Positions 275 to 64,000 of a DNA stretch of 64,000 bases are shown here, one piece after another (position 1 is the first letter of the stretch; the number at the start of each line of letters is the position of its first letter). This stretch comes from Crambe crambe (Eukaryota > Porifera > Demospongiae > Poecilosclerida > Crambeidae), in the NCBI GenBank assembly GCA_963924555.1, contig OZ004594.1:3627563-3691562 (forward strand), written 5' to 3'. The position numbers and the translations under genes were made by a program. The notes below the pieces were generated by a model. It did no database searches. It was not told the DNA's origin and worked only from the letters and a program-made list of their open reading frames with translations.

Positions 275-1383
275 GAGTAGTCCAAAAATGTAGAGGAACC
301 AGGCACCTTGATGCTGCTAGAATCCCTCCACCACCTGCTACAGCTCTAATGTATGCTTCAAGTAGCCTGAATCCAACAATACAGCAAGTGCTAATAATAA
401 CAGAACCAGTCAACTGCAGTGGATGGATCACATCATGGAATGGGCTCGCCATTGCACTAAATCTACCCTCATCATCTAATCATGTCCTCAATATTTCTGT
501 ATGGAGACCTCGGATGATGTCGGGAGGATTAAGATACAGTTACGTAGGATCTAATAGACTGCTTTTTGAACCTGAAGAATTACAAAATAGTGCTAATGTG
601 ATGCATATTGATCAACCTTCTGGTTCAGTAACTGAAAGGATCTCTTACTTCCGATTCATCGAGAAGAAGCCAGGACTTGATGAAATGATTTACATTCAGC
701 GTGGAGATGTGGTGGGGTGGATTATAGGTCCTAGAACCGACCAATCTCTGCCCCTATCTTTGGTTTTCAGAAACTCTACTGATGAACAATACGTTGATAT
801 TGAAAGGCTTGTTTATAATATATCAGTGTGTCAAATTTGTTCATTTTTTGAATGTAGTACCTATAATCGCTTCACTGGGGTTATTCCCTACCTCTCCTTC
901 AATTATCGTACTTTTACTAGTCGTTACTCTTACTTGGAAGATGACTTGCGCAATGCTCAACCCGTAGTTTGTAATATTAATGGATCTGTGCCCACCCAAT
1001 ACCCAGTTGGATCACCACTGACACCAACAGGAGCAGCAGCAGTATGCCTCTTTTTTCGATGCCAGACTGATGGACTTGTTATATATACAGCTCCTGCTGG
1101 TTCAATTGTTTTTCTTCTTGTGTTAGTGCTCAGTGTTTCAGTCTTGGTAATACTAATATATAAAGGTTCAAAATCCAAAGGGAATGATGTATCCACTCCT
1201 AGTCGAGAAGGTATATACCATGAATCTTCTCAATGAATAAGCTTAATTGTCTTACTCTATACAGGATCAATCATTGGACGAGACAAAAATGACCTAAATG
1301 ATACCATAAGCCGTTTAGACAGCAGCGGAAGCTCAAACTACATCACATATGTACTTTCATCATCTGCTGATGTCAAAGTTTAA
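275..1383 (+). CDS. R1: kinase-less single-pass receptor, 5'-partial
   Basis: Exons read as about 275-1210 and 1265-1383 (phase-1 junction, donor GTATAT at 1211, acceptor ACAG). The ectodomain is a paralogue of R2's: shared landmarks are a Cys followed by a PPPP run, NCSGWITSW, VWRP, VGSNRL, a TERI-YFRF strand, QRGDVVGWI and a late C-x-x-C. Unlike R2, ectodomain, stalk and membrane segment sit in one exon. A transmembrane helix (AGSIVFLLVLVLSVSVLVI) is followed by a short basic tail, ending after the splice in SSNYITYVLSS and a stop. There is no kinase between this stop and R2's start codon 190 bases on. The signal-peptide exon is not visible and may lie left of the window; the exact acceptor near 275 is a guess based on phase. 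Probably a membrane-bound non-signalling or adaptor-type partner of R2. Confidence 0.72.
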
Positions 1384-1403
1384 TTTCGTTATTGATTTTA
1401 TCG

Positions 1404-1421
1404 TGCATGCGCAGTAGCGCG
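1404..1421. promoter_or_regulatory. NRF-1-like GC palindrome upstream of R2
   Basis: TGCATGCGCAGTAGCGCGCG lies about 160 bases before the R2 start codon. The TGCGCA core resembles the NRF-1 site known from animal promoters, and comparable sites stand before most other genes of the array. Function is inferred from position and recurrence. Confidence 0.45.
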
Positions 1422-59900: not shown

Positions 59901-62900
59901 CACTGCTAGAAGAATAGCATACTTACTGAATCCATACACATGCATGAAAATTCAAACCTAATCCAATTTGAGATCACTCCGTATGTGGACAAATTTCAAG
60001 ACCTCAGCGGTTACTGTTGCCAGAGGTACTCCAATGGCAATGGGTTGTTACCTATGGTAACCTGATATCATATAGTGTTACTGTGGTTGTGTTTTTGGTC
60101 ATCTGTGGTATTTCATTATATCAGCTGGAAAGCAGGATATGTATGATGAAAATTACCTAATGAAGGATAGTACTGAGAAATCATTGCTACTTAGCAATAT
60201 GATTCTTTACTACCATATATGCAGGAGCAAAGACAAGTATTAGGAAGCAACTATGAACAGCAGGACAATGCTAACACAGTAAGTGATCTCTTCATACTGT
60301 GGCTTATACTTGCCTTTCACAGTCTCTCTCTTATCATAACCTCCTCCTAGTACAATAGGTTGCAGTTCTTTGTGGAGGATCAGATCTACTGGGCCCCAGC
60401 CACAACAGAATCAGGTCTTTACACACAGCTGGCTTCAAAGAAGTACAGAGAGATACTGCGGAATCAAATCCAGTATATATATAAAATATTAAAATAACTA
60501 AGTCTATGATAGGCTAAATAGTTGCAATGTTATAGACGCATCCAATCAGAAACTAGCAACAGGAAACCTGTACATTTTCTAGAGAGGGCATCAATTTAGT
60601 GCTTACATTTTCAAATATGGCAAGGAACTTTTTTTTTTCATATCTTGAATGATTCCAACATTGTTGGCTGATTTCTTGTGGTTTGTTTCATAAAGCTAAT
60701 TTTTATGAAAACTAGCTAATTGTGTCAGTATTACTGATTCAGAAGTATAGGAAAGTGACCCATGCAAGGTCATGACTGTGTTGATTCTGATGGTAAATTT
60801 TATAAGGCTCCAGTATCTCAGTTACTTTTAAGTGTCAGGTGAATGGGAAATGGAATTTAATATCCATTTTATTTTATCCTCTGTTATTTAGTCTACTGGT
60901 GTGGGCTGACATTAGCAGTTTTCTTGTTAATAATAATATCTGGTTAATTTCTTTTGCCCACACACAATGACAGCTATAGGAACTATTATGACTAGAAAAT
61001 TATGATGCCCACATTAGCTACCATGAAATAAAAACAATCTTTTGGTTATTTTTCCTGCTTCCAGAGGGATTCCATTATTAAACGTCACAACAACATTGCA
61101 TGAATTTTGACTCGACTTTATTCAATTTTGACATTCCACCAAGCAAGCAATGGGGGATCTAAAAATTTTGTGGGAGTAATGATTAATCAGTAACTGGTTG
61201 CATTGGAGCATCAAAATCAACTGAATTTCAGGGAATTCACATTCTATTTTGTGCTGTTATGGGCTGTACCCTTTAATCATTACAACTCTATTAATACTCG
61301 TACAGGATCCTTGAAAAACTGGGAGCAGGACAATTTGGAGAGGTGTGCAAGGCATTGTGGACTGTGGACAATCACACCCTCGAGTTGGCCGTCAAGACTC
61401 TCAAACCGAACGCCTCCGAGGATGATAAGGTCAAGTTCCTCCAGGAGGCAGCCATCATGGGACAGTTTAGCCACCCTAATGTCATTAAGCTGTATGGAGT
61501 GGTCACAATGGGAGAACCAGTAAGTCGTCAGACCAGTAGCTATTATTAGAGTGATGTTTTCATGGGTAAAATGCTTGATGAGTCCACGTGGTGTCACTCA
61601 GTATGTAATAAGTTTATAGAGTAGCTACACCTCATGTGATTCAGTGTATAACAGAGCATTTCTGACACATACCATACCACATGTTACACTTCACAGTCAT
61701 ACAGTCATGAATTCACTTGAAAATACAATACCATATGCAAACCATACTGGGTAATGGTATGAATAAGCGCAATGATAACTCCTCTAAGCATATTGGGTTC
61801 ATACCTTTGTGTGAATAAGGGTAATGGTAGAATGGTAACTCCTCCAAGCATAATAATATGGTAATGGTGGGATGATATGTAACTCCTCTAAGCATATTGG
61901 GTCTTGTCTCCATACCTTGCTATACAGGGTAATGGTATAGGGTGTTACTCCCTCTTTCAAACTATACTAGGCTATGAGGTACAATGCAATGCTATACTGG
62001 GTAAATCCATACCTTCAAGCTCCATACCTTCAAGCTATACTAGGTAATGGTGTGAATAAAGGGTGTTACTCACTGTGGTAACTCCCACTAAGCATATTGG
62101 GCTCATACCTTCAATCTATACTAGGTATGAAGCCCTCTAGATGGTTGTGCATGGTATACAACTCCTATCAAGTTCATAGTTTCAAGTAACAGGGTTGTAC
62201 TCCCTCCGAGCTTATTAGTCAAACCACAATAGCCATAATATAACTCCATGGTATGGCAGCCCTTGCTTGTAAGAGAATCGTTATATGGAAGCATTGCTGA
62301 ATACCTACAATACTACTACTTAGTTCTCTGTGCCAAGATCTCCTAGAAGCTTAAGGGTATTCGCTAATTAGGGTATCTAGTTCCACTAGTCTGTGGCTGC
62401 CAGTTTCAAATTGCTGTATGATTGACTCCCATGCATCAGAGAGATCCAATTTCATTTCCAATGGTATTAATAATTAATTTCCTTATTGAACAAGACAACA
62501 AGACAATGAAAATAGGTATCTGGTGGAATGGAGAGATTGTCTTATTACAGAGTGGTCTGATTAGACAGGTTTCACTGTAGCTGGAATAGGTGCTGTTGGG
62601 ACATTGTGGAGTGGAATTAATAGAGGTAGTCTGAGTGGTCTCGCACCTTCTTAAGTTATTGCAATTAACCTTAATTAACTTGTTTTTTGGTCAGGCCTGG
62701 GGGCTTACCGCCTATGCAAAGCATCTGGCAAAATGGTATGCACACATTTCATTGCTTTGAAGAAGACAGAACAAAGAAATTATAACATGTTACAAAGGAT
62801 GTGTTTTCCCAGTGACTTATATAACCCAGGACCCCTGTGATGGTCAACAATAAATTAGCTAGGTGCCTCACTGATTTCACATGGAACAAAATTCCTGTCA

Positions 62901-64000
62901 ATCAGTGGTGAGCTGAACTTGAAAATTGATGGAATGTGCTGTGATTCTTACTACGTATGACTTAAAAGATGCCTTAGATATGCGTGATTTTTTTTCAGGT
63001 GATGCTGTGTTTAGAATTGCTGGCCAACGGAGACCTCAGGAGCTACCTCCAGCACATGAATTTGAGGTATAGAGCATAATCACAGTAACATTGCATTTTT
63101 GGGGGGAGGGGAGAGGAAACCAACTCAAGTTTATGACATTTTTTGCTACAATAATTATTTGTAACATGGGACTTGCATGTGACAGTCCCATGATTGTTAT
63201 TAGCTCAAAATTAATATCTTTTGATGACCAAGCTTCTTTTTAAACTTTGGCTCACTATACCCATCACTACGTGTTTACTGCATACCATTTCCCAATACAC
63301 ACTTACTTAGTGTGTGTATTGGGATGATTTAGTGTGCAGTACACACTTTTTCATTTTTACAGTGCATGGTCTGGAAATGTAGAGATAGTCTAACCATTAT
63401 AGAACACATGACAGTGGCCAAAAATAAATTGGACTTGTTCCGTTAAGAGAGAGGAAAAATTAATTCATACTAGTGACCAAAATATTTTCCCCCCATATGA
63501 TCTAATCTTCTCCAACAGATGCTGTTTCCATTCCGTTACCTTTTGAAGAAGACAATACTATGTAATCATAATTAAAAGATTAAAAGTCTTTTCGAAGTAA
63601 TTATGTCATCACTGAAGCTGTCATTATTAAAAGTCTTTCAAAGTAGTTTAAAAGTCATTAAGTCATTTGACCGTCTCTTATTATCTTGCCAAATAGGCAT
63701 CGTTATTATTATGGACTGTGCACTCTAAATCAGACTTTGTACAATTATCTCACATGTACTGCATATAATAGATTTTGTAAGGAAATTTAATTCTACCCCA
63801 TGAACTACAGATAGGCACTGCAGTTTGATTCTAATTATGTACTTTCAGGATCGAGTGCTGACACTTTTGATCTTTCTATGTTTGTACATATAATAAAATT
63901 CATGACCATTGCTTCTAAATGCTCTGTTTTGTTGCAGAGGGTCAAGTCACAAGGATTTCATCGAGACGCAGATCCTGTTCCTTAAGTTTGCACGGGACAT
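56998..64000 (+). CDS. R12: receptor tyrosine kinase, 3'-partial
   Basis: Exons 56998-57070, 57135-57728, 57954-58376, 58565-59007, 59472-59528, 60225-60278, 60351-60472, 61306-61519, 62999-63066 and 63938->64000. Signal peptide 1-24; ectodomain 25-222, nearest R10 ([21 protein letters not shown], loop [14 protein letters not shown]). Thr-rich stalk with TTTRGED; membrane helix about 325-352, then KRRMVSK. The juxtamembrane region has a Pro-rich KAPKPPPLP that fits an SH3 ligand, [17 protein letters not shown] and [12 protein letters not shown], then [20 protein letters not shown]. Kinase start: [11 protein letters not shown], Lys619, helix-[10 protein letters not shown]. The window ends in the exon before HRD. 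Exon phases match R6 and R9 throughout, despite much divergence in the cytoplasmic part. Confidence 0.85.
57817..57882. repeat. (CA)n microsatellite
   Basis: About 32 CA units in R12 intron 2. Confidence 0.95.
61730..62260. repeat. Imperfect minisatellite in R12 intron 8
   Basis: Repeated blocks with GGTAATGGTATGAATAA, AACTCCTCTAAGCATATTGG and CATACCTTCAA, spaced about 60-75 bases, perhaps seven units, variably decayed. No coding signal. Confidence 0.7.
63267..63364. mobile_element. Second copy of the TA-flanked MITE, left end decayed
   Basis: GTGTTTACTGCATACCATTT pairs with the right-hand AGTGTGCAGTACACACTTTT, and the right end TCATTTTTACAGTG matches 35-154. The left terminal CACTGTAAAAATGA is lost. 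It lies in R12 intron 9. Confidence 0.7.

Follow-up and report, generated by a model that had tools for sequence, protein, structure and literature searches.

Results

Organization of the receptor array

A tandem array of eleven receptor genes, named R1 to R11, lies in the Crambe crambe DNA analysed here (the window: 64,000 nucleotides, C17:3627563-3691562, where C-numbers denote contigs). Two kinds of gene make up the array, receptor tyrosine kinases (RTKs) and kinase-less receptors, six of which end in a tail of repeated NxxY motifs, and from R3 to R11 both kinds are built on closely similar ectodomains. According to the open reading frames of the window, every one of the eleven ectodomain genes is encoded on the + strand. 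This agrees with the initial annotation, whose count of seven kinase-less and four kinase-bearing genes also holds, with R1 placed by our own reading of its splice and R2 and R11 by their exons. The order is not alternating, as had been stated; it is interleaved (K, kinase; -, kinase-less), namely R1-, R2 K, R3-, R4-, R5-, R6 K, R7-, R8-, R9 K, R10-, a pseudogene and R11 K, with kinase-less runs at R3-R5 and R7-R8. The orphan kinase exons after R8, the pseudogene (R10b, at 53.0-56.5 kb) and the chimeric nature of R4 and R8 had been missed. The genes and related features are the following:

281..1383, + strand: R1, kinase-less, divergent ectodomain, transmembrane (TM) segment and small last exon with the tyrosine tail NYITYV (open frame; splice 1210/1265 by eye, signal exon unplaced)
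1571..15729, + strand: R2, RTK, R1-like ectodomain, kinase exons at 7633-15729 (catalytic motifs, exons only)
15980..17799, + strand: R3, kinase-less, 3 exons, 488 residues, NxxY tail at 17350..17796 (spliced model)
19264..21382, + strand: R4, chimera, 4 exons, 475 residues, with RTK-type signal, ectodomain, TM and start of the juxtamembrane part, then an R5-type tail (spliced model)
21727..23611, + strand: R5, kinase-less, 3 exons, 588 residues, Pro/Ser/Thr stalk, NxxY tail at 23165..23608 (spliced model)
24133..30265, + strand: R6, intact RTK, 13 exons, 772 residues, Eph-like kinase (spliced model)
30396..32296, + strand: R7, kinase-less, 3 exons, 594 residues, tail at 31850-32293 (spliced model)
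37133..38544, + strand: R8, chimera, 3 exons, 393 residues, R6-like front, NxxY tail at 38164..38541 (spliced model)
39171..42877, + strand: orphan kinase exons behind R8, part of e8 and e9-e13 (similarity to R6 exons)
43005..50257, + strand: R9, intact RTK, 13 exons, 866 residues (spliced model)
50536..52104, + strand: R10, kinase-less, 3 exons, 427 residues, NxxY tail (spliced model)
53026..56472, + strand: R10b, an RTK in decay, with stops and deletions in the ectodomain and incomplete kinase exons (sequence reading)
56999..64000, + strand: R11, RTK, kinase exons at 61307 to 65671 in window numbering, past the window end (L038; exons only)

Eight genes were fully spliced, and R1, R2 and R11 were partly modelled (exons read); TM segments and signal peptides were judged by eye. 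The eight fully modelled genes are self-contained, each with a signal, an ectodomain, a TM and a last exon of its own. The kinase-less genes R3, R4, R5, R7, R8 and R10 yield spliced complete frames with GT-AG introns and no internal stop, from three exons each (signal; ectodomain; stalk-TM-tail) or, in R4, from four. The kinase domain is absent from all modelled kinase-less genes.

Kinase-bearing genes

From their spliced models, R6 and R9 are predicted to encode complete RTKs, with a signal peptide, an ectodomain, one TM segment and a kinase with catalytic motifs; R2 and R11, which retain the exons with the G-loop, the lysine, HRDLAARN and DFG, are assigned to the same class by exons only. 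The kinase of R6 covers positions 1-258 of the 258 in PF07714 (3.2e-84). Its best PDB match is a row labelled EGFR (4.7e-95, in two stretches), followed by EphB1 (2.4e-74) and EphA2 (9.3e-71), and the kinase is probably of Eph type, an assignment by the best matches after the EGFR-labelled row. No ephrin-binding, FN3 or Ig domain was matched above the Pfam cut-off in the ectodomains scanned. The RTK juxtamembrane exons (25599-25933 and 44495-44847) bear the tyrosine motifs YHxL and YEDP, the latter of which we take to resemble the Eph juxtamembrane motif.

Kinase-less genes and their tail

The initial annotation described a short tail and implied passive or competing partners. The tail stretch of six kinase-less genes in the window is instead 103-149 residues long (the R4 stretch includes RTK-type residues) and is marked by repeated NxxY. 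In 11 tails, 37 of 74 tyrosines stand in NxxY against 5.7 expected and a maximum of 16 in 2000 shuffles, an excess that is inflated because the tails are kin; the R6 juxtamembrane part has NxxY at 0 of 14 tyrosines. R7, whose tail is identical in DNA to that of R5, was left out of this count, as were L023, L024, L025, L028, L036 and L037 (L-numbers denote loci outside the window) and the tails that follow the second ectodomain family, E2, described below. With half of the tail tyrosines in NxxY, a purely ITIM/ITAM reading of the tail was provisionally rejected, no formal ITIM/ITAM scan having been run.

Pooled ratios of nonsynonymous to synonymous differences (pN/pS), taken from chosen pairs and not from every pair, were 0.56 for tails (6 pairs, p=4.4e-11), 0.55 for kinase-less ectodomains (5 pairs, p=2.4e-11) and 0.55 for RTK ectodomains (2 pairs, p=0.0018), which points to constraint on the tail reading frames of the family.

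Ectodomain exchange, chimeric genes and a common promoter sequence

With the R6 ectodomain, those of R3-R5 and R7-R11 share 67-98% identity, so that chance is no issue, and those of R1 and R2 are distant from it (28% and 29% identity); the earlier statement that both kinds of gene use the same ectodomain stands for R3-R11 and fails for R1 and R2. This family is called E1. Nothing above cut-off was found for the ectodomains in Pfam or for the R6 ectodomain among PDB sequences, and an AlphaFold model from 11 window sequences, mostly strands, was of low confidence (pLDDT 53, pTM 0.54) and carries no fold claim.

A recombination test, covering R4-R9, found 39 informative sites in the ectodomain exons and 317 incompatible pairs among 741 site pairs. 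Within 100 bp the incompatibility was 0.20 versus 0.43 in permuted data, and none of 2000 permutations was as low. Furthermore, sequence blocks unite RTKs with kinase-less genes: at the 5' end, for example, R9 goes with R4 and R7, and R6 with R5 and R8. Ectodomain segments have thus been exchanged by recombination between RTK and kinase-less genes. The locus combines tandem genes with highly similar ectodomains, different intracellular effectors and recombined ectodomains, which are three marks of paired receptors, and the paired-receptor architecture proposed initially, one ectodomain on different intracellular effectors with exchange between the kinds, is borne out.

Exchange also reaches the intracellular part. 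R4 resembles an RTK as far as residue 25 of the juxtamembrane exon, beyond which it resembles R5. R8 resembles R6 until the TM ends (about 38151) and continues into a tail like those of R10 (82.4% over 415 bp) and of genes some 0.86 Mb distant, in a cluster at 2.78-2.82 Mb (L030, 85.6% over 409 bp; L017, 83.2% over 441 bp). We read R4 and R8 as RTK genes that were separately converted to kinase-less genes, the intracellular part probably having been swapped for a tail. The kinase exons trailing R8 are 95-100% like those of R6 and have open frames; e4-e7 are missing from them, as is the half of e8 encoding the G-loop and the ATP-binding lysine, and on the loss of this ATP-site half R8 was rejected as a hidden RTK. 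Within these exons, at 40735-41420, lies an interspersed element of about 690 bp with at least 54 matches in the genome; the copies are mostly 95-97% identical, which suggests recent spread. A misassembled haplotype duplication was considered as the source of the tandem genes in the window and rejected: the repeat spanning the R6 end and R7 matches that spanning the R8 end and R9, but a tail follows in R7 and a kinase in R9, and therefore those copies are not collinear alleles.

Upstream of five genes lies a common palindrome:

19192..19205, + strand: promoter palindrome TTGCGCATGCGTAA, 14 bp, at R4; exact also at 24057 (R6), 30310 (R7), 37060 (R8) and 42924 (R9) (motif search and alignment)

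In the alignment of R4-R9 it stands 72-86 bp upstream of the start codon in these five genes, and with up to 2 mismatches it has 12 matches at 7 places versus 0.17 expected. Since this proximal promoter sequence is common to both kinds of gene, co-expression of RTK and kinase-less members (R4, R6, R7, R8 and R9) is plausible.

The same modules elsewhere in the genome

The genome searched comprises 143.1 Mb in 119 contigs. E1 recurs on C17 in the cluster at 2.78-2.82 Mb, where seven loci hold the whole ectodomain exon (L016, L017, L018, L020, L023, L024 and L025) and a further three have it in broken or partial form (L027/L031, L028/L029 and L030/L034); an NxxY tail is readable behind all of them except L027/L031, that of L024 being in another frame than its TM. 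E1 also occurs in an RTK at 3.478 Mb (L022, L039). Tail searches match in addition 2.745-2.763 Mb, where the tail stands with E2. The homology of E1 and E2 tails is reciprocal (3.5e-12 and 2.0e-9), and a profile comparison of the two ectodomains found no relation (Prob 0.5). Between C17:2711526 and 3398752, neither a kinase N-lobe exon (150 of 170 candidates scored) nor PF07714 was among the matches listed; the N-lobe search recovers R6 at 2.3e-13 and R9 at 3.9e-14. Because no such match was listed there, the tail clusters at 2.744-2.818 Mb appear to be kinase-less.

E2 has 86 exon matches in the genome. A census by adjacency, taking the next feature on the strand and joining neighbouring ectodomains less than 1.6 kb apart into one unit, used 78 of the 86 E2 rows (two were merged, and four from other contigs were left out together with four short pieces of C17), 61 of 62 C17 kinase rows and 22 tail starts picked by hand. 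For the 60 units on C17, the next feature was a kinase in 32 (at 1.2-4.4 kb), a tail in 8 (at 0.23-0.75 kb) and neither assigned in 20; the automatic count was 9 with a tail and 19 with none, before a tail 5,064 bp from C17:2777856 was assigned to the next gene. In one of the 8 tails (C17:2720230) the matched stretch is interrupted by an in-frame stop. In the E2 RTK L061, TM and kinase exons were read. The tail-bearing L050 and L053, which belongs to a unit with a kinase next on the strand, are identical at 216 of 220 ectodomain residues, and the DNA similarity of these 3.7-kb loci covers only the ectodomain exon and some 150 bp before it, ending at about the 3' edge of the exon. One tail module has thus been combined with two ectodomain families, each also found with a kinase.

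Several further loci were seen. The E2 RTK array at C17:2.49-2.72 Mb has equal-score matches about 98 kb and 126 kb apart and looks internally duplicated, which could reflect real duplication or uncollapsed haplotypes. The R2 ectodomain has another copy, 97% identical, about 46 kb upstream of R2 (C17:3583694-3584299). L037 (C19:5.36 Mb), whose ectodomain is distantly related, ends in a tail built of NSSYMI/NQYRMTD repeats, again rich in repeated tyrosines. C16:5.42-6.05 Mb holds a large PF07714 array, mostly of single open frames of up to 879 residues, unlike the intron-rich RTKs of the window.

Other features of the window

Packing is very tight between 21382 and 50536, with stop-to-start gaps of 131 bp (R6-R7), 279 bp (R9-R10), 345 bp (R4-R5) and 522 bp (R5-R6). 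Between R7 and R8, at 34916-36607, there is an open transposase frame of 563 residues (DDE_Tnp_1_7, 7.3e-74), beside which tandem and inverted repeats occur at 33.5-34.8 kb. The tRNA and Rfam scans gave no match.

Discussion

We propose that the locus is a recombining paired-receptor array whose kinase-less members are docking partners phosphorylated in trans by the RTKs, a reading that in our judgement has an about even chance of being right. Its genetic side is shown by the gene structures, the intact kinases, the tail module, the R4 and R8 chimeras, the ectodomain exchange and the recurrence of the tail on E2. Its signalling side, between RTK and kinase-less members, we infer. The E1 ectodomain is joined either to an Eph-like tyrosine kinase or to an NxxY tail with no kinase, and both kinds of member may bind the same ligand and enter mixed complexes, in which the RTK would phosphorylate the NxxY tyrosines of the kinase-less tails in trans. 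PTB or SH2 adaptors would then dock on the phosphorylated tails, in a division of labour resembling that of ErbB3, and the ratio of RTK to kinase-less members might tune or diversify signalling.

Several observations weigh against this proposal. On ectodomain trees the kinase state changes as often as in shuffles (4 vs 3.8 for 17 DNA rows, 5 vs 4.5 for 18 protein rows); therefore ancestry fails to predict the effector, which appears independent of it, and the same trees do not show one-to-one pairing of the two kinds beyond chance. The ectodomains of R6 and R8 differ by 6.7 nonsynonymous and 0.3 synonymous changes, partly at sites common to R8 and R4, and we read this excess as a probable conversion patch, selection or chance being also possible. 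The promoter palindrome is missing at R5. To the inflation of the NxxY excess it must be added that half of the tail tyrosines are not in NxxY, and that NxxY also serves endocytosis without phosphorylation. The pN/pS of about 0.55 is not low, single pairs are weaker (for example 0.71 for R10/L020), and the R10 tail is shortened, ending 25 residues before that of R8. Finally, in a check of 18 genes, AATAAA or ATTAAA was missing within 213-400 bp of the stop in 14 of the 16 kinase-less genes (two stretches, of 265 and 213 bp, were shorter than 400 bp), and R6 and R9 have such a hexamer 27 and 14 bp past the stop; the background in the window is 0.56 per 400 bp, and a weaker variant hexamer is present in 14 of the 16.

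The alternative that survives best, although we regard it as unlikely, is that the kinase-less members are competing decoys, which would bind the ligand or the RTK and block signalling, with tail tyrosines serving turnover only. A common ectodomain without a kinase would suit such a role, and NxxY resembles endocytic NPxY signals; however, a constrained tail of more than 100 residues with repeated tyrosines, common to two ectodomain families, would be needless for a decoy. Because of the length of the tails, their repeated NxxY and their constrained frames, a signalling or trafficking partner appears to fit better than a bare decoy.

Somewhat less probable again, the kinase-less genes may encode adhesion or endocytic receptors that act alone through PTB-domain adaptors, with an integrin- or LDLR-like use of NxxY and no pairing with RTKs. 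The enrichment of NxxY would be expected of them, as would whole clusters of tail genes such as those at 2.744-2.818 Mb, with no kinase exon among the matches listed, but the exchange of ectodomains with RTKs and the promoter sequence common to five genes suggest a common ligand and common expression.

We consider it improbable that the kinase-less genes are the debris of birth and death, functionless by-products of unequal crossing-over. The decay of R10b, the chimeric state of R4 and R8, the shortened R10 tail and the broken or partial ectodomains among the relatives at 2.78-2.82 Mb are what such turnover could leave, but six full reading frames have intact splice sites, the kinase-less ectodomains show the pN/pS given above, and R4 and R8 gained tails and did not merely lose a kinase. 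The weakest candidate, an alternative splicing array in which the ectodomains of kinase-less genes would serve as variable cassettes, spliced in part of the transcripts to kinase exons further downstream, could draw on the open-frame kinase exons downstream of R8, the few canonical poly-A hexamers behind kinase-less stops and two phase-1 GT sites 3' of the R3 TM, but is very improbable given that the tail lies inside the TM exon in R3, R5, R7, R8 and R10, that the R8 kinase exons are without the G-loop and lysine part, that the clusters at 2.744-2.818 Mb offer no listed kinase exon as a splice target and that the tails are constrained.

A broader and more tentative reading, which we hold to be possible yet doubtful, is that of an early-animal type of system, in which the unrelated E1 and E2 would each serve as kinase 'writer' and NxxY-tail 'substrate', re-matched by exon-level recombination, giving a self-contained phosphotyrosine paired-receptor repertoire without ITAM/ITIM tails or soluble kinases. 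What gives the array its interest is that an RTK is paired with a kinase-free tail, that a second ectodomain family shows this pairing again with the same tail, and that sequence has been exchanged between the two kinds. Were the tails substrates of their sister RTKs, this would be a minimal route to a diversified recognition repertoire and would offer a concrete gene set for testing recognition by phosphotyrosine receptors in early animals.

Comparison with known systems

No paper on tandem pairs of RTK and kinase-less genes with a common tail was among the matches listed in the open-licence literature, and within those matches the initial statement that nothing similar had been described in sponges roughly stands for the tandem pairing. 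It does not extend to kinase-lacking Eph-receptor architectures, which the available passages of PMC6485061 report in cnidarians, sponges and ctenophores, together with ligand-binding and kinase domains of unlike phylogenies (PMC6485061). The window genes are like these receptors in having an Eph-like kinase and kinase-less members; they differ from Eph receptors in showing no ephrin-binding or FN3 match in Pfam, and the tail module and ectodomain exchange are features of the window absent from those passages. In kinase-impaired RTK partners such as ErbB3, an inactive partner has a phosphorylated tail (the passages of PMC8615588 describe this for kinase-dead ErbB3), as is proposed here. However, ErbB3 is a single gene that keeps its kinase fold, whereas the window genes are many copies with the kinase domain absent and a separate tail instead; from their models, the kinase-less genes do not appear to be kinase-dead RTKs of the ErbB3 type, in which the fold is present but impaired.

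Most known paired receptors belong to vertebrate immune clusters, where they are tandem genes subject to gene conversion, with an Ig fold and with ITIM/ITAM tails that use soluble kinases. The examples in PMC12447643, PMC2832619 and PMC2413239 (CD300A/C, CEACAM and FcR-like) join similar ectodomains to different signalling tails, and in this the window genes are like them; they differ in having no Ig match in Pfam and in having the kinase built into one partner. The Botryllus fester family and its co-receptors, described in the passages of PMC12065747 as paired receptor genes with variable tyrosine motifs, are alike as invertebrate paired receptors with such motifs and differ by their Ig/sushi domains, no RTK partner having been found in those passages.

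In arrays of the protocadherin or Dscam type, variable exons are spliced to common constant exons, and the self-contained structure of the eight modelled genes of the window appears to speak against such an arrangement. Plant receptor-like kinases and receptor-like proteins also lie in clusters whose members have one type of ectodomain and either carry or lack a kinase, but these are Ser/Thr kinases with LRR ectodomains, and the receptor-like proteins have short tails. Among sponges, an Ig-type RTK of Geodia and kinase-less adhesion molecules have the same Ig-type ectodomain; these have Ig domains, and we know of no tandem array, tail module or exchange among them. Set beside these systems, the array of the window is one of paired receptors with the kinase inside one partner, and the observation is larger than first described.

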